A stretch of DNA of 39,803 nt from NCBI GenBank assembly GCA_030429005.1, contig JAUIDP010000026.1, positions 1 to 39,803 on the forward strand, in the 5' to 3' direction. The notes under the pieces were generated by a model. It ran no database searches and had not been told where the DNA came from. It worked only from the letters and a program-made list of their open reading frames with translations. Below are positions 3,115-26,601 of this stretch, in pieces. The position numbers were made by a program, and so were the translations under genes. The first letter of the stretch is position 1. The number at the start of each line of letters is the position of its first letter. Source of the stretch: Gammaproteobacteria bacterium. GTDB taxonomy: Bacteria > Pseudomonadota > Gammaproteobacteria > Steroidobacterales > Woeseiaceae.

Positions 3115-4661
3115 CAGTGCCGGAAGTGTCGCATGCCGGTAAAGACCATCGCCAGCCCGTGTTCGTTGGCGGCCTGGATGACTTCGTCGTCGCGCATCGA
3201 ACCGCCCGGCTGGATGATCGCAGCGATGCCGGTTTCAGCGGCGGCGTCGATGCCATCGCGGAACGGGAAGAACGCATCCGACGCCATCACCGAGCCGTCG
3301 ACGGTGAGACCTTCGTCGGCCGCCTTGATCGCCGCGATCTTCGTGCTGTAGACGCGGCTCATCTGGCCGGCGCCGACGCCTATCGTCATGTTGTCCTTGC
3401 AGAAGATGATGGCATTCGACTTGACATACTTGACGACCGTCCAGGCAAACAGCATGTCCGCGACCTGTGCCGGTGTCGGCGCTGTTTCCGTCACGACCTT
3501 GAGGTCATCCGCGGTAATCCTGCCAAGGTCGCTGCCCTGAACCAGCAGCCCGCCGGAAACCTTCTTGAATTCCTGGCCGCCGGCTTCGGCCACCCACGGC
3601 CCGGTGTCGAGTACACGCACGTTGCGCTTCTCTGACAACACCTCGGCCGCATCGGCTGCCACGTCCGGCGCAACGATAACCTCGACAAACTGCCTGTCGA
3701 TGATGGCCTTCGCCGTCTTCGCATCCAGCGGCCTGTTGAACGCAATGATGCCGCCAAAGGCCGACGTCGGGTCTGTCCGGAAGGCTTTTTCGTAGGCACT
3801 GCCGATGTCGTCGGCCACGGCCACACCGCAGGGGTTGGCGTGCTTGACGATCACGCAGGCCGGCGCCTCGAACTGGCGCACACACTCAAGGGCCGCGTCA
3901 CTGTCGGCAATGTTGTTGTACGACAGCGCTTTGCCCTGCAGCTGCGTCGCCGTCGCGAGTGAGCCTTTCGGCGCCTGCTGGTCGACATAGAACGCCGCCT
4001 GCTGGTGCGGGTTCTCGCCGTAACGCATTTTTTCGACCAGATTGCCTGCATACAGGAAGCGCTCCCCGAGCGCGTCGTCACCCAGCGATGCCGACAGGTA
4101 CTTCGTAATCGCCGTGTCGTAGCTGGCCGTGTGTGCGTAGGCTTTGGCCGCCAGCCGGCGGCACATCTCCGGTGACAGGACCTTGTCCTGCAATGCGTCC
4201 AGCACCGCGGTGTAGTCTGCCGGGTCCACGACGACGGCCACGCTTTCGTGGTTCTTTGACGCGGCACGGATCATCGCCGGCCCGCCGATATCGATGTTTT
4301 CGATGGCGTCCTCGATTGTCGTGTCGTCACGCGCGATGGTTTGCTCGAACGGATACAGGTTTACGGCCAGCAAATCGATGGGTTCGATGCCGTGTTCAGA
4401 CATCACGGCGTCATCTGTACCGCGCCGCCCGAGCAGGCCGCCATGAATCGTCGGATGCAGCGTTTTGACGCGCCCGTCCATGATTTCCGGGAAGCCGGTC
4501 TTGTCACTGACTTCGACGACATCGATGCCGGCTTCGCGCAGGGCCCGGCAGGTACCGCCGGTGGAGAGAATTTCAACGCCCAGTTCGGCAAGGCCGGAGG
4601 CGAACGGTATAAGACCATGCTTATCGGATACGCTCAGCAGCGCCCGTCGCACCGTTAACAT
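3114..4661 (-). CDS. purH: bifunctional AICAR transformylase / IMP cyclohydrolase
   Basis: PurH carries out the last two steps of IMP synthesis. The first is formylation of AICAR using 10-formyl-tetrahydrofolate; the second is ring closure. The N-terminal IMP cyclohydrolase part shows [20 protein letters not shown] and [13 protein letters not shown] within residues 1-75. The C-terminal transformylase part includes KHANPCGVA near residue 270 and [20 protein letters not shown] near 415. The 515-residue length is usual. It lies ten bases after the fis stop and overlaps purD by one base, continuing the dusB-fis-purH-purD order of many Gammaproteobacteria. Confidence 0.97.
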
Positions 4662-4953: not shown

Positions 4954-5940
4954 CTAGGCGGCAATCGAAATACCCCCGTCCCCGCGGTCAAAGTATTCCA
5001 GCACCAGTCGAATTTGTTCTTGCCCACTGCCGGCCCTGACCGCCTGGTAGCGAAACTCGCCTGCGTTTACGAGTTGCTTGCTGTACCAGGTCAGGTGTTT
5101 TCGAGCCACCCGCACACCGACACGTTCCCCATAGAATCGGTGCAGTTCTTTTAGATGGCCGAGCATAGTATCACGCAATTCATTTTTTTCTAGCGGAGTT
5201 ATTTTTCCCGCACCGGAATGAAATTCTGCAAGTTCCCTGAAAAACCACGGCCGGCCCTGGGCGCCTCGGCCGATCATCAAGCCATCAGCACCAGTTAGTC
5301 GCAAAACTTCAAGTGACTTCTCCAGAGTCGTGATGTCGCCGTTGGCAAAAACCGGAATGCCAACCCGCTGCTTGATCTGCGCGATCGTGTCGTACTCGGC
5401 TTCACCCTTGTATTTGCATGCGCGCGTTCTGCCGTGCACGGCGAGCGACTGCACGCCGCTTTGTTCGGCGATGTGAGCGATCCGGGCGCCATTGCGATTT
5501 GCCCGGTCCCAGCCTGTGCGCATTTTCAGTGTCACCGGTACGTCGACCGCGGCTACCACGGCTTCCAGGATCTCAGCGACCAGCTTCTCATCCTGCAGCA
5601 AGGCCGAGCCGGCGAGTTTCCTGCAGACGTTCTTGGCCGGGCAGCCCATATTGATGTCGATGACCTGGGCACCGCGTTCGACACAGGCTTGCGCCGCCAC
5701 GGCCATTTGCCGTGGCTCCGAGCCGGCGATCTGCACGACTACTGGTTCAGCGTCGACATCGATATCCAGCTTGCGACGGGATTGCGCCGTCTGCCAGAGG
5801 CTGATGTCTGCCGTGGTCATTTCCGAGGTGGTCAAACCAGCACCGAAGCGGCGGCAGATCCGTCGGAACGGGGCATCCGTGACGCCGACCATCGGCGCCA
5901 GCACGAAGCGGCTGCTGAGATCGTAGGGCCCGATTTTCAT
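4954..5940 (-). CDS. dusB: tRNA-dihydrouridine synthase B
   Basis: DusB is an FMN/NADPH-dependent enzyme that reduces specific uridines in tRNA to dihydrouridine. The protein begins MKIGPYDLSSRFVLAPMVGVTD, the standard DusB start. INMGCPAKNVCRK near residues 96-108 contains the catalytic Cys106, and LAVHGRTR and FANGDITT follow in the barrel. I chose ATG 5940-5938 because 18 upstream codons lie inside the previous gene and are not conserved-looking. The start overlaps that gene's stop by one base (TGATG). The result is 328 residues, a normal size. The fis gene follows, as in most Gammaproteobacteria. Confidence 0.95.
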   Translation of the reverse strand: MKIGPYDLSSRFVLAPMVGVTDAPFRRICRRFGAGLTTSEMTTADISLWQTAQSRRKLDIDVDAEPVVVQIAGSEPRQMAVAAQACVERGAQVIDINMGCPAKNVCRKLAGSALLQDEKLVAEILEAVVAAVDVPVTLKMRTGWDRANRNGARIAHIAEQSGVQSLAVHGRTRACKYKGEAEYDTIAQIKQRVGIPVFANGDITTLEKSLEVLRLTGADGLMIGRGAQGRPWFFRELAEFHSGAGKITPLEKNELRDTMLGHLKELHRFYGERVGVRVARKHLTWYSKQLVNAGEFRYQAVRAGSGQEQIRLVLEYFDRGDGGISIAA

Positions 5941-22113: not shown

Positions 22114-22521
22114 ATGAGCCAAAAGTCAATTCTAAGGGCCTATTACGGCGGCACGCTCGTGTTCCTGCTGCTCGACCTCGGGTTTCAGTTCAGCGTGCGG
22201 GCGACGTTCCTCGATTCGAGCACGGGACTGCGGCTCCTGTACTACGGATTTTGCATGCTCTGTTTCCTCGTCATGGCCTGGAAACCCGCGCTCACGGCGC
22301 TGATCGGCGCCGTCGAGTCCGTCGTGACGCTGAGCGCGCTGATCATTGCGATGGGCGTTCGCGTCATGGTCCCGGCGGACCCGATGCTGGAGACCGGTGC
22401 CGACGTCGTAACGGCCCGCGAGTTGATGAATTTTGTTCTCGCCGGCGGCATCGCTTATGTCGCCTGGGGCAGCAACATGCAGCAGCTGTTCGGGCGTCGC
22501 GGCGGGGGCAGCCATTCCTGA
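22114..22521 (+). CDS. small membrane protein of unknown function
   Basis: I do not recognise this 135-residue protein. It has about four hydrophobic helices (residues 10-27, 40-56, 60-82 and 107-122), short loops, and a Gly/Arg-rich end (FGRRGGGSHS). It is divergent from msrP, 85 bases away, and codon use resembles the neighbours. The ATG at 22114 has no strong ribosome site. Its downstream neighbour is the T-box leader of ileS, which probably has its own promoter, so no shared role is implied. Confidence 0.7.
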   Translation: MSQKSILRAYYGGTLVFLLLDLGFQFSVRATFLDSSTGLRLLYYGFCMLCFLVMAWKPALTALIGAVESVVTLSALIIAMGVRVMVPADPMLETGADVVTARELMNFVLAGGIAYVAWGSNMQQLFGRRGGGSHS

Positions 22522-22584
22522 GAGCCGACGAGCAACAGGCCGCTTGTCTTTGCCCTGCTCTGACGTTAATGTGCGCCGAAGACG

Positions 22585-22865
22585 TTGAAGGGGAGGAGTA
22601 AGCGGACCTTCAGGCATGAGCGACCGGGAAATGGTGCGAGCCCCGGGCCAGGAAACCGCCGAAAATCACCCCGGAGTCGCTGCCCGAACAGCACACTGCC
22701 TGCCCAGTAGACGCAGCCGACTGACCCGCGAAAAGGGTGACGGATCCCAAAGATCCACGAGGCGGCAGCCGCGAGTCTGCCGTGAATTCGGGTGGTACCG
22801 CGAAGTTTCCTCCTCGCCCCGATTGGCCTGGCAACTGCCGGGCTGCCGGGGCGTGTCTGTTTTTG
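22585..22865 (+). promoter_or_regulatory. T-box riboswitch (isoleucine specifier), transcriptional type
   Basis: A leader fitting the T-box class precedes ileS. Stem I has a GGAGTAAG segment (22595-22602), GCGG/CCGC and CCT/AGG helices, and an apical arm. That arm has AGCGACC and GGTGCGAGC loops closed by CCGGG/CCCGG (22624-22628 with 22642-22646), very like known T-boxes. The specifier ATC (22665-22667) follows GAAA and precedes ACCCC, and reads isoleucine. AGTAGA lies at 22707. The T-box sequence CGGGTGGTACCGCG is at 22789-22802, with TGGT at 22793-22796 able to pair with an ACCA tRNA end. A terminator follows. TTGTCT (22544) and TTAATG (22566) form only a weak promoter candidate upstream. 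Confidence 0.92.
22815..22864 (+). terminator. T-box-controlled intrinsic terminator of ileS
   Basis: CGCCCCG (22815-22821) pairs with CGGGGCG (22847-22853). A nested CCTGGC/GCCGGG stem lies inside, and TGTCTGTTTTT follows, ending at 22864. It sits directly after the T-box antiterminator sequence, where the Gram-positive T-box terminator lies. Binding of uncharged tRNA-Ile should favour the antiterminator and let transcription continue into ileS. The T run is only five long and interrupted before that, so efficiency is uncertain. Confidence 0.8.
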
Positions 22866-22876
22866 GAGTGAATGAA

Positions 22877-25800
22877 TTGGGATTCAAGGAAGTACAGGGC
22901 CGCTACAACGGGCCGGAGCTCGAGAACGAAATGCTGACGTTCTGGCGGGACAACGATGTCTTTGCGCAGACCCTCGAGCAGAGCAAGGACCGGCCACGAT
23001 TCAGTTTCAACGAGGGTCCGCCAACGGCCAACGGCAAGCCCGGCATCCATCACGTGCTGGCGCGTACCTTCAAGGACGTGTTCCCCCGCTACAAGACGAT
23101 GCGCGGCTACTATGCGCCACGCAAAGCCGGCTGGGACACACACGGCCTGCCGGTCGAGCACGAAGTCGAGAAACACCTGAAGAAGCAGGGGCTCGTCGAC
23201 AGCTACGACAAGGAAGAGATCGAAGAAAAAGTCGGCATCGCCGAGTTTACGCGCCTGTGCCGAGAGTCGGTCATGACCTACATCGGCGACTGGGAGAAGA
23301 TGACCGAGCGCATGGGCTTCTGGGTCAATCTCGACGAAGCCTATTACACGCTCGACAACAGCTTCATCGAGACGGTCTGGTACCTGCTCAGGGAAATCTG
23401 GGACAAGGACCTGATCTACCGTGGTTACAAGGTCGTGCCCTACGATCCACGCATAGGTGCGACGCTGTCCTCGCACGAGCTTGCCCAGGGCTACGAAGAG
23501 ACGGAAGACCCGTCGGTCACCGTGCGTTTTCGACTGGCCGGCGATGACAATACCTCGATCCTGGTCTGGACGACCACGCCGTGGACATTGCCGTCCAACC
23601 TGGCGCTCGCTGTCGGTGCCGACATCGACTACAGCTATTGCGAAGCAGGCGGGGAAACGCTGATCGTTGCCGAGGCACTGCGTGAGTCGGTTCTGCGGGA
23701 CCTCGAACACACCGTCAGCAGGACCGTCAAGGGCAGCGAACTCGTCGGTACACGTTACCAGCGGCTGTTCGACTATCTCGAGGTCGACTCGGAGGCCGCC
23801 TTCCAGGTGTATGCCGGCGATTTTGTCAGCACCGAAAGCGGCACCGGTATCGTGCATACGGCACCGGCTTACGGTGTTGACGACCTGGCGTTCGGCCAGG
23901 CACATGGCCTGCCGGTCGTGCACGGCGTCGGCCTCGATGGCAACTTCATCGCCGACGTCGAACCTGTCGCCGGCATGTTTTTCAAGGACGCCGACAAGCC
24001 ACTTATTCGCATCCTGAAAGATCGTGGCCTGATGTTCCGTTCCGAACGCATCACGCACAGCTACCCGTTCGGCTGGCGCACGAAAGACCCGATCATCTAC
24101 TACGCGAAAAATGCCTGGTATATCCGTACTTCCAGTTTCCGCGATCGCATGACCGAACTGAACCAGACGATCAAGTGGGTACCGGAGCATATTCGCGACG
24201 GTCGTTTCGGCAACTGGCTGGAGAATAATGTCGACTGGGCGCTGTCGCGCGAACGTTTCTGGGGTACGCCACTGCCGGTCTGGACGGACGGCGACGGCGA
24301 CTACCAGTGCATCGGCTCGGTGGCCGAACTCAGCGAGAAAAGCGGCCGGGACCTCAGCGAGCTGGACCTGCACCGACCCAGCATCGACGACATTACCTTC
24401 GAACAGGACGGCAAGACCTGGCGGCGTGTGCCGGAGGTCATTGACTGCTGGTTCGACTCGGGCGCAATGCCTTATGCGCAATGGCACTACCCGTTTGAGA
24501 ACCAGGACATATTCGAGCAGCACGCGCCTGCCGACTTCATCTGCGAAGCAATCGACCAGACACGCGGCTGGTTTTATTCGCTGCACGCAATCGCAACGCT
24601 GGTGTCCGACAGCGTGGCCTACAGGAACTGCATCTGCCTCAGCCACATCGTCGACAAGGACGGCAAGAAGATGTCCAAGTCGCTCGGCAACATCGTCGAC
24701 CCCTACGACGTATTCGACACCGTCGGCGCTGACGCATTGCGCTGGTATTTTCTCGCGCGCCTGTCGCCCGACGTGCAGAAACGCATCTCGGTCGACATCG
24801 TCGCCGATGTCGCCAGTTCCTTCATCAATACGTTCTGGAACACCTACGGCTTTTTTGTCCTGTACGCCCGCATCGACGACGTGGACCTGGGCCAGCCCGT
24901 GGCACCGGCGGACCGTCCCGAGATCGATCGCTGGGCACTGGCGCTGACTCACCGTACGATCGAAACGGCGACGGCTGCGCTGGAAAATTACGATGCGAAG
25001 ACCGCCGGCGAGGCTATCGAGTCGTTTGTCGACCAGCTGAGCAACTGGTATGTACGCCGCAACCGGCGCCGTTTCTGGAAGTCGACTGATACGGAAGACA
25101 AGCGTGCGGCCTACCTGACGTTGTACGAATGCCTCGTCGCGGCACACAAGCTGATGGCGCCGTTCGTGCCGTTCCTCGCCGAAGAGGTGTACCAGAACCT
25201 GGTTCGCGGCGTGGACGCGGACGCGCCGGCCAGCGTGCACATGGTCAAGTGGCCTGAAGCGGACCCGGACTGGCAAAACGATGCCTTGTTGTTTGACATC
25301 GATGTCGTGCAGAAAGTGGTCGGCCTCGGCCGTGAGGCGCGCAGCCAGTCGGGCGTCAGGACGCGCCAGCCGCTCGCGAGACTCCTTGTGCGAGCACCGG
25401 ACGATGCGTCGGCCAGGGCGCTGGCCGCGCACCAGGACCAGGTCCTCGAAGAACTGAACATCAAGGAAGTCGAGTTCATCGCGCGCGATGCGGACATCGT
25501 CAATTACCGGATCAAACCAAACCTGCCGAAACTCGGCAAGGAAGGTCACGGCAAGAACCTGCCGGCGATTCGCAAGGCACTCGAGGCCGCCGACGGCAAT
25601 GCCATTGCAACGGCTGTTGCCCGCGACGAAGCATTTACGCTGGCGTTCGCTGGCGGTGAAATCGACCTGACCGGCGCCGACCTGTTGATCGAGACAACCT
25701 CGGCACAAGGTTACGCCTGTGCCGAGGACATCGGTTACCTGGTGGCGCTGGACACGAACCTCGACGACGCACTGGTCAGCGAAGGCATGGCGCGCGAAAT

Positions 25801-26032
25801 CGTCCGTTCCGTACAGGACGCAAGAAAACAGGCGGGCCTCGAAGTCGCCGATCGCATTCGGCTGGGCGTCTCCGGAAGTGCCGCCGTCGAATCGGCACTG
25901 GCGGCACACCGTGATTATGTGATGACGGAAACCCTGGCTGTCGAATGGGCACCCGGGCAGACTGACGCCCTGTACACCGACAGCAAAAGCCTCGGCGACG
26001 ATACGTGGACGATCGAAATCAGCAAGCTTTAG
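22877..26032 (+). CDS. ileS: isoleucyl-tRNA synthetase, IleS2 type
   Basis: This enzyme charges tRNA-Ile. Eukaryote-like IleS2 features include the start MGFKEVQGRYNGPELENEML, YKVVPYDPRIGATLSSHELAQGYEE near residue 190, the editing-domain WTTTPWTLPSN near 231 and KMSKS at residues 598-602. A long C-terminal region replaces the zinc finger of IleS1. The class I signature reads GIHH (residues 56-59) instead of HxGH. I chose TTG 22877, since GGAG at 22865-22868 is eight bases upstream and the protein then begins like its family; it gives 1051 residues. The open frame extends to 22616, but that part encodes the T-box. It is not beside ribF or lspA, so a second ileS may exist. Confidence 0.95.
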   Translation: MGFKEVQGRYNGPELENEMLTFWRDNDVFAQTLEQSKDRPRFSFNEGPPTANGKPGIHHVLARTFKDVFPRYKTMRGYYAPRKAGWDTHGLPVEHEVEKHLKKQGLVDSYDKEEIEEKVGIAEFTRLCRESVMTYIGDWEKMTERMGFWVNLDEAYYTLDNSFIETVWYLLREIWDKDLIYRGYKVVPYDPRIGATLSSHELAQGYEETEDPSVTVRFRLAGDDNTSILVWTTTPWTLPSNLALAVGADIDYSYCEAGGETLIVAEALRESVLRDLEHTVSRTVKGSELVGTRYQRLFDYLEVDSEAAFQVYAGDFVSTESGTGIVHTAPAYGVDDLAFGQAHGLPVVHGVGLDGNFIADVEPVAGMFFKDADKPLIRILKDRGLMFRSERITHSYPFGWRTKDPIIYYAKNAWYIRTSSFRDRMTELNQTIKWVPEHIRDGRFGNWLENNVDWALSRERFWGTPLPVWTDGDGDYQCIGSVAELSEKSGRDLSELDLHRPSIDDITFEQDGKTWRRVPEVIDCWFDSGAMPYAQWHYPFENQDIFEQHAPADFICEAIDQTRGWFYSLHAIATLVSDSVAYRNCICLSHIVDKDGKKMSKSLGNIVDPYDVFDTVGADALRWYFLARLSPDVQKRISVDIVADVASSFINTFWNTYGFFVLYARIDDVDLGQPVAPADRPEIDRWALALTHRTIETATAALENYDAKTAGEAIESFVDQLSNWYVRRNRRRFWKSTDTEDKRAAYLTLYECLVAAHKLMAPFVPFLAEEVYQNLVRGVDADAPASVHMVKWPEADPDWQNDALLFDIDVVQKVVGLGREARSQSGVRTRQPLARLLVRAPDDASARALAAHQDQVLEELNIKEVEFIARDADIVNYRIKPNLPKLGKEGHGKNLPAIRKALEAADGNAIATAVARDEAFTLAFAGGEIDLTGADLLIETTSAQGYACAEDIGYLVALDTNLDDALVSEGMAREIVRSVQDARKQAGLEVADRIRLGVSGSAAVESALAAHRDYVMTETLAVEWAPGQTDALYTDSKSLGDDTWTIEISKL

Positions 26033-26229: not shown

Positions 26230-26601
26230 ATGTCTTATCCCGTCGATAGCTTCCATGCTGCGGCATCGGTTCTGGTCGGTCACGGCCATATAAAACAACG
26301 ACTTATGAGAGCCTTCGAGGACTACCTCGACGCTATCGACGAAGATGAAGTGCCCGAATCGAGACGCGGGGCATTCATCGAGGTACAAAAAGCCATGCAC
26401 CGGGTGGCGCCGCTGAACGGTGAGGGTTCGGTCTGCGCCTCGGTGCGCAAGATGTCACCGGTCGAAGCCGGTGACTGTGCGATCACTATCCTGTCGATCT
26501 ACCGGGACATGCTTCGCGAAGTCGACGACGACGCGCCGCGGCTGCGTGTCGCCAACGATGTGCATACCAAGATACCGCCGTTTCTTTTGAAGTCGGTCTG
26601 A
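26230..26601 (+). CDS. conserved-looking small protein of unknown function
   Basis: I do not recognise this 123-residue soluble protein. It is acidic and mostly helical in appearance, with EDYLDAIDEDEVPESRRGAF at residues 31-50 and one Cys in EGSVCASVRKMSPVEAG followed by another at DCAITILSIYRDML. It has no signal peptide or membrane helix. The ATG has a GGAG ribosome site five bases upstream. It has its own good promoter and a long structured leader, so it is likely well expressed. It is followed by murI after 143 bases. Confidence 0.75.
   Translation: MSYPVDSFHAAASVLVGHGHIKQRLMRAFEDYLDAIDEDEVPESRRGAFIEVQKAMHRVAPLNGEGSVCASVRKMSPVEAGDCAITILSIYRDMLREVDDDAPRLRVANDVHTKIPPFLLKSV

Follow-up and report, generated by a model that had tools for sequence, protein, structure and literature searches.

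The stretch of DNA analysed here, referred to as the window (39,803 nucleotides), carries on its forward strand an ileS gene for a type-2 isoleucyl-tRNA synthetase, and directly before it an RNA leader assembled from the parts of a T-box riboswitch. Genes of ordinary gammaproteobacterial type, aroQ, accC, prmA, dusB, purH, purD and groEL, lie nearby on both sides of ileS. Two short frames flanking ileS (22114–22521 and 26230–26601) had no NCBIfam or Pfam match. The features of the locus are as follows.

22544–22572, + strand: sigma70-like promoter, TTGTCT (22544–22549), 17 bases and TAATGT (22567–22572); pattern recurrent upstream of related leaders
22582–22677, + strand: Stem I with apical AGCGACC (22619–22625) and GGTGCGAGC (22633–22641); RF00230 alignment and covariation in 91 leaders
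22665–22667, + strand: specifier codon AUC (isoleucine); alignment of 91 leaders
22680–22716, + strand: Stem II; RF00230 alignment, partly supported by covariation
from 22718, + strand: IIA/B region; RF00230 alignment, weakly supported by covariation
22742–22756, + strand: extra hairpin, seen by eye
22762–22783, + strand: Stem III; RF00230 alignment, two-sided changes in 7 of 7 pairs
22789–22821, + strand: antiterminator; RF00230 alignment, sequence and covariation in 91 leaders
22789–22802, + strand: T-box sequence CGGGTGGTACCGCG, one base off AGGGTGGNACCGCG, within the antiterminator
22793–22796, + strand: UGGU bulge, predicted from the sequence to pair with the ACCA end of tRNA-Ile
22815–22864, + strand: intrinsic terminator, hairpin 22815–22853 and U-rich tail 22854–22864; folding and a script run over 91 leaders
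22865–22868, + strand: GGAG, likely ribosome-binding site, from the sequence
22877–26032, + strand: ileS, type-2 isoleucyl-tRNA synthetase; TIGR00392 and tree

The synthetase scored 937 bits against TIGR00392, for which the cut-off is 621, and its start is likely the TTG at 22877, with the GTG at 22868 as a possible alternative. It was the only TIGR00392 match above the cut-off in the assembly; the matches below the cut-off have the lengths of related synthetases and might be ValS, LeuS or MetG, and because the assembly is 84.84% complete a second ileS might exist. The Rfam T-box model RF00230 matched positions 22576–22824 of the forward strand over its full length (model positions 1–219) with 80.8 bits and an E-value of 5.2e-18, which was the single T-box match in this assembly of 3.14 Mb (G000). 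The original prediction had named a score below the threshold of the covariance model as a ground for refutation, and by this criterion the window's own score counts against it, although homologous leaders of the family do pass: the Rfam gathering score is 93 bits, a curator's threshold and not a mechanistic feature, and a default scan of the window listed no family because 80.8 bits lies below it. The landmarks it had read from the letters (AGCGACC, GGTGCGAGC, ATC, a T-box sequence one base off, TGGT and a terminator) were found at the places it gave, and its location of the leader holds apart from the 5′ end, which at 22585 is about 9 bases tight. Its central proposal, an isoleucine T-box in front of ileS, is supported by the full-length RF00230 match, by TIGR00392 and by the specifier in related leaders. 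The full-length match, the specifier matching ileS and the UGGN bulge are features of class I T-boxes, and Stem I is long and has its apical elements, not the short Stem I of class II.

For the structure we projected the Rfam pairing of the window, counting the 46 pairs in which neither base is missing, onto a MAFFT alignment. Its 91 leaders are the window's own, those of 87 further family members, one from another family of the order (G165) and two from gammaproteobacterial MAGs (L008 and L009); the family leader L180 was left out as it is without a T-box core. Standard pairs occupied 90.7% of the cells over the 46 pairs, as against 30.6–48.2% when the 3′ partners were slid by 1–3 columns, and two-sided changes occurred in 34 of the 46 pairs, as against 14–23 pairs after sliding, although these events are not independent because the leader sequences are related. 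Eight pairs were weakly supported, with standard pairs in 36–72 of the 91 leaders or in fewer than three quarters of the filled cells: two in Stem I (45/91 and 63/91), two in Stem II (46/91 and 72/91), one in IIA/B (36/91), two at the tip of Stem III (49/74 and 55/78) and the innermost antiterminator pair (52/88). Stem II was for the most part paired, with two-sided changes.

The specifier, read from its alignment column, is AUC in all 91 leaders, the ends of 90 of which had also been set by an ATC pattern. The core GGTGGTACCG[C/T]G precedes ileS in all 91, and the conservation of this core is partly a product of selection because the leaders were chosen by the core pattern; likewise, of the 90 leaders chosen by that pattern, 87 have GGTGGTACCGCG and 3 have GGTGGTACCGTG. 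The invariant columns of a 27-row alignment fall in the Stem I apical elements, the specifier and the T-box. The specifier and T-box bases are conserved in homologous leaders, as the original prediction required. A chance match is ruled out by the E-value, by the covariation and by the absence of T-boxes from the 367 sampled genomes of the class outside the window's genus.

The signals for starting and stopping transcription recur among the relatives as well. Of 90 leaders, 84 are closely preceded by the pattern TTGNNN-N16–18-TANNNT, compared with 4.7% of shuffled stretches, and in 56 of those 84 the spacing between the −35 element and the leader is identical. In the window, the terminator hairpin folds with −30.8 kcal/mol (z −2.8). 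A script detected such a hairpin in 90 of the 91 leaders, 86 of which have at least four U in the next nine bases, and in L117, the only leader it missed, the hairpin is visible by eye. In three leaders (L116, L122 and L157), the terminator hairpin contains palindromes that look like small mobile repeats, of the GGTAACTG or the GTGACTG type. The strand 22815–22821 is predicted to be common to the 3′ arm of the antiterminator and the 5′ arm of the terminator. The free optimum for 22786–22864 (−35.9 kcal/mol) contains the terminator and a fold forced to form the antiterminator reaches −26.9 kcal/mol, so that the default state is off. The antiterminator piece alone (z 1.1) and Stem I alone (z 0.0) folded no better than shuffled sequence, so that single-sequence folding does not support these two parts; covariation does support both.

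When the folded piece is extended to 22786–22880, the optimum combines the terminator hairpin with a pairing between UUCCUCC (22807–22813) and GGAG.GAA (22865–22872). This pairing brings up the possibility that the T-box acts mainly at translation, hiding the ribosome-binding site in the off-state. The terminator tail of the window, UGUCUGUUUUU, might also be read in this sense, being irregular and less regular than most, with a U tail that begins only after UGUCUG. We nevertheless consider regulation mainly at translation unlikely, because terminator-like hairpins with U-rich tails are conserved in 86 of the 91 leaders, whereas the UUCCUCC stretch has no conservation in the 27-row alignment, and hence no conserved sequestering of the ribosome-binding site of the class II kind was found there. 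Known translational ileS T-boxes have a short Stem I, unlike the long one here.

The combined evidence makes it very probable that the leader is a class I, transcription-attenuating T-box that senses tRNA-Ile and controls the only ileS found in the assembly, and it was probably acquired together with ileS by horizontal transfer. We infer tRNA binding and the response to charging. Transcription would start near 22579, and the AUC specifier in Stem I would read the anticodon of tRNA-Ile(GAU), while the apical modules of Stem I would be expected to stack on the tRNA elbow. The ACCA end of an uncharged tRNA would pair with UGGU (22793–22796) and stabilise the antiterminator, allowing RNA polymerase to read into ileS. 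With charged tRNA, the C-rich strand 22815–22821 would instead join the terminator, and transcription would stop before the ribosome-binding site. For the presumed ligand itself, an E. coli tRNA-Ile query gave four weak partial matches in the window's own genome and 15 matches in seven relatives, the best of which in each genome was tRNA-Met(cat) according to ARAGORN, and a pattern search for tRNA-Ile(GAU) gave none in four genomes. ARAGORN, applied to 30 of the 42 tRNA matches in the one-contig genome G105, returned 34 distinct tRNAs, with neither Ile(GAU) nor Ala(UGC) among them. These two tRNAs are usually encoded within rRNA operons, which may be absent from the sequences searched. No tRNA-Ile(GAU), whose discriminator base (A73) should match the T-box, was therefore seen in those sequences.

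The T-box is a trait of the whole family and not of one odd genome, a point on which the original prediction is amended. At E-values up to 1e-5 we found it in 89 of the 107 genomes of the family, probably the Woeseiaceae, and in all 12 genera, with one match each, and in 43 of the 45 good-quality genomes of the family; the carriers include a one-contig genome of 4,059,891 bases. The same leader scored above the Rfam cut-off in 16 of the 107 genomes, which may already have been flagged by automatic Rfam annotation, and the other 73 of the 89 matches lie below it. Beyond the family, a sample of 296 genomes of the order had 78 with a T-box, 77 of the window's family and G165 of another family, and a sample of 369 genomes of the class had two, both of the window's genus (G000 and one more); in both samples the filters were strict and only a few candidates were scored in each genome, such that weak matches can be lost. 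Within the class sample, the expected rarity of T-boxes is therefore borne out.

In the order sample, IleS matches at E-values up to 1e-180 comprised 84 from the window's family, four from family f6 (65–70% identity) and one from family f8 (40%). Of the four f6 loci, that of G165 carries the T-box, those of G181 and G201 are without the core and that of G222 is cut off. The genes of G181 and G201 (L269 and L270) belong to the same IleS clade and lie, judged by eye, immediately after a ribF-like sequence, where ileS usually sits in Gammaproteobacteria; they are possibly in-place replacements of the native gene. In named genomes, the closest IleS sequences among the best 80 of 591 matches were 14 gammaproteobacterial loci with 68–85% identity in the best segment, titled Woeseiaceae (four), Chromatiales, Acidiferrobacteraceae, Gammaproteobacteria or Proteobacteria, followed by Anaerolineales at about 50%. 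Within the same best 80 matches, 13 of the 14 gammaproteobacterial loci have a T-box core before ileS, L010 being the one without, and three of the 14 have a T-box above the Rfam cut-off.

An assembly in 125 contigs and 84.84% complete might raise the suspicion that the contig is a contaminant or a chimera originating in a phylum that has T-boxes. The occurrence of the T-box in all 12 genera of the family, a one-contig genome included, refutes this idea, to which we assign hardly any probability, and ordinary gammaproteobacterial-type genes lie on both sides of ileS on the contig. The placement on a gammaproteobacterial chromosome proposed earlier accordingly stands, given aroQ and accC nearby and gammaproteobacterial MAGs as the nearest named IleS relatives among the best 80 of 591 matches.

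We examined the origin of the gene with a quick IleS tree of 73 rows (LG+G4), which came with long-branch and composition warnings and deliberately omits 28 of the 80 loci (best of 591 matches), namely L025, L049 and others that are mostly Bacteroidota. The 16 gammaproteobacterial rows including the window's form one clade with a support of 100, surrounded by type-2 IleS of Chloroflexota, Deinococcota, Actinomycetota, a cyanobacterial MAG and two alphaproteobacterial rows. The tree settles no order of branching among these groups and does not single out a donor phylum. Another 14 gammaproteobacterial type-2 rows, in groups of 11 and 3, stand elsewhere in the tree, and these have neither a T-box core nor a profile match within 650 bases upstream of ileS. 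A profile built from the 91 gammaproteobacterial leaders and run upstream of ileS gave long matches (about 150–290 bases) in most Chloroflexota rows, both Trueperaceae rows, L038 (Bacillota) and L028 (a Leptolyngbyaceae MAG), and short matches around the core only in L033, L036, L055 and L061. No profile match was obtained upstream of ileS in L024, L032, L034, L035, L037, L039, L042, L046–L048, L050, L067, L077 and L010; in L044 a core stands 595 bases before the stretch ends, with no profile match, and L041 has too little upstream sequence. In the cyanobacterial MAG, the T-box core and the long profile match lie before ileS near position 3305 of a short contig assigned to that genome (L028, JASJDH010000428.1).

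T-box presence changes at least seven times on this tree among 67 scored rows. The simplest account would be that ileS was transferred along with its leader and that losses came later, and repeated gain of the leader is an alternative compatible with the tree. G181, G201 and L010 have this ileS but no T-box core before it, so either the leader can be dispensed with or it was gained repeatedly. An ancestor of the gammaproteobacterial clade probably acquired ileS and leader together from another phylum; the direction, the time and the joint nature of the transfer are what we infer. The original prediction is also to be amended as to the gene under control, a type-2 ileS that looks acquired from another phylum.

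In its parts, the leader is an ordinary class I T-box. It shares with the class I T-boxes of Bacillota (RF00230; ileS and glyQS leaders) a long Stem I, a specifier matching the synthetase, Stem III, the UGGN bulge and a competing terminator, and differs from them in its gammaproteobacterial host, one match per genome, G+C-rich sequence and scores mostly below the Rfam cut-off. T-boxes are chiefly a feature of Gram-positive bacteria, and what is surprising here is the host, the family-wide spread and the transfer that the leader apparently shared with a type-2 ileS. T-boxes before ileS have been reported in Dehalococcoides and Deinococcus (PMC2494555). The ileS T-boxes of Chloroflexota and Deinococcota have the same type of gene and position, and the profile of the gammaproteobacterial leaders matches most Anaerolineae and Dehalococcoidia and both Trueperaceae rows; their IleS, however, is only about 46–50% identical among the best 80 of 591 matches, and several Anaerolineae have the core AGTGGTACCGCG, unlike the window's leader. 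The ileS T-box of Mycobacterium tuberculosis is a translational (class II) T-box of Actinobacteria, which sequesters the ribosome-binding site (PMC10907184). Such class II T-boxes have in common with the window the control of ileS by tRNA-Ile, here predicted, whereas the window has a long Stem I and a conserved terminator-like hairpin.

Proteobacterial T-boxes were present in 2 of 125 genomes in a survey of 2008, at leuA of Geobacter and Pelobacter (PMC2494555). These share with the window a place in the group then called Proteobacteria, but they belong to Delta-proteobacteria and precede a leucine biosynthesis gene. The TBDB database holds 23,535 T-boxes, and the word "proteobacteria" is absent from the main text of its paper (PMC7778990). 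In the portion of the literature covered, T-boxes are described from Firmicutes, Actinobacteria, Chloroflexi, Deinococcus/Thermus and a few delta-proteobacteria, and no report of a gammaproteobacterial T-box appeared among the titles and opening lines of abstracts in this partial coverage. Woeseiaceae are widespread in marine sediment, and the main text describing the closed 4.1 Mb genome of Woeseia oceani XK5 contains neither "riboswitch" nor "T-box" (PMC7082342). The family includes a cultured species, Woeseia oceani. A family-wide gammaproteobacterial T-box would be evidence that bacteria can acquire an RNA switch of several parts along with its gene and retain it.

Some genomes of the family appear to have lost the leader. 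The 18 of 107 genomes without a T-box match include three that showed no ileS and 15 that have it, in seven of which ileS is truncated or has its start at the edge of a contig, leaving eight with enough upstream sequence. Remnants were recognised by eye in four of these: the interior is deleted in L196, L197 and L199, the last also with a palindrome, and in L206 it is replaced by a palindrome of the mobile-repeat kind (GGTAACTG or GTGACTG type) noted above for three terminators. In L192, L193, L195 and L198 the leader is gone without trace and a promoter-like stretch remains, again as judged by eye. Rfam at E-values up to 1 found no T-box in any of these eight loci (L192, L193, L195–L199 and L206) or in L010. 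In L180 (G050:C23:20641-21384) the leader is intact up to the specifier, and a long palindrome replaces the rest up to the 3′ arm of the terminator and TTTTTT; the 3′ strand of Stem I thereby equals the 5′ arm of the terminator, in a hairpin of −59.0 kcal/mol.

This series of deletions and interruptions in eight relatives and L180, together with a window score below the Rfam cut-off, could suggest that the T-box is a decayed, functionless element kept by descent after ileS was acquired. Such a history is very improbable for the window, which retains the specifier, UGGU, antiterminator and terminator, and the 91 intact leaders keep their functional bases while the helices vary with compensation. 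We therefore favour a working class I T-box in the window. As a more speculative extension, to which we give little weight, the module of synthetase and riboswitch might have crossed phyla, become the isoleucine sensor of the family and later been rewired in some lineages by palindromic insertions, L180 being possibly a Stem-I-only switch that senses tRNA-Ile occupancy, charged or not. Intact, truncated, palindrome-interrupted and lost versions in one family constitute a natural series for the gain and decay of a riboswitch. L010 carries a riboswitch of another kind, an SAH riboswitch at 5732–5814 that scored 48.4 bits, above the cut-off of 37.
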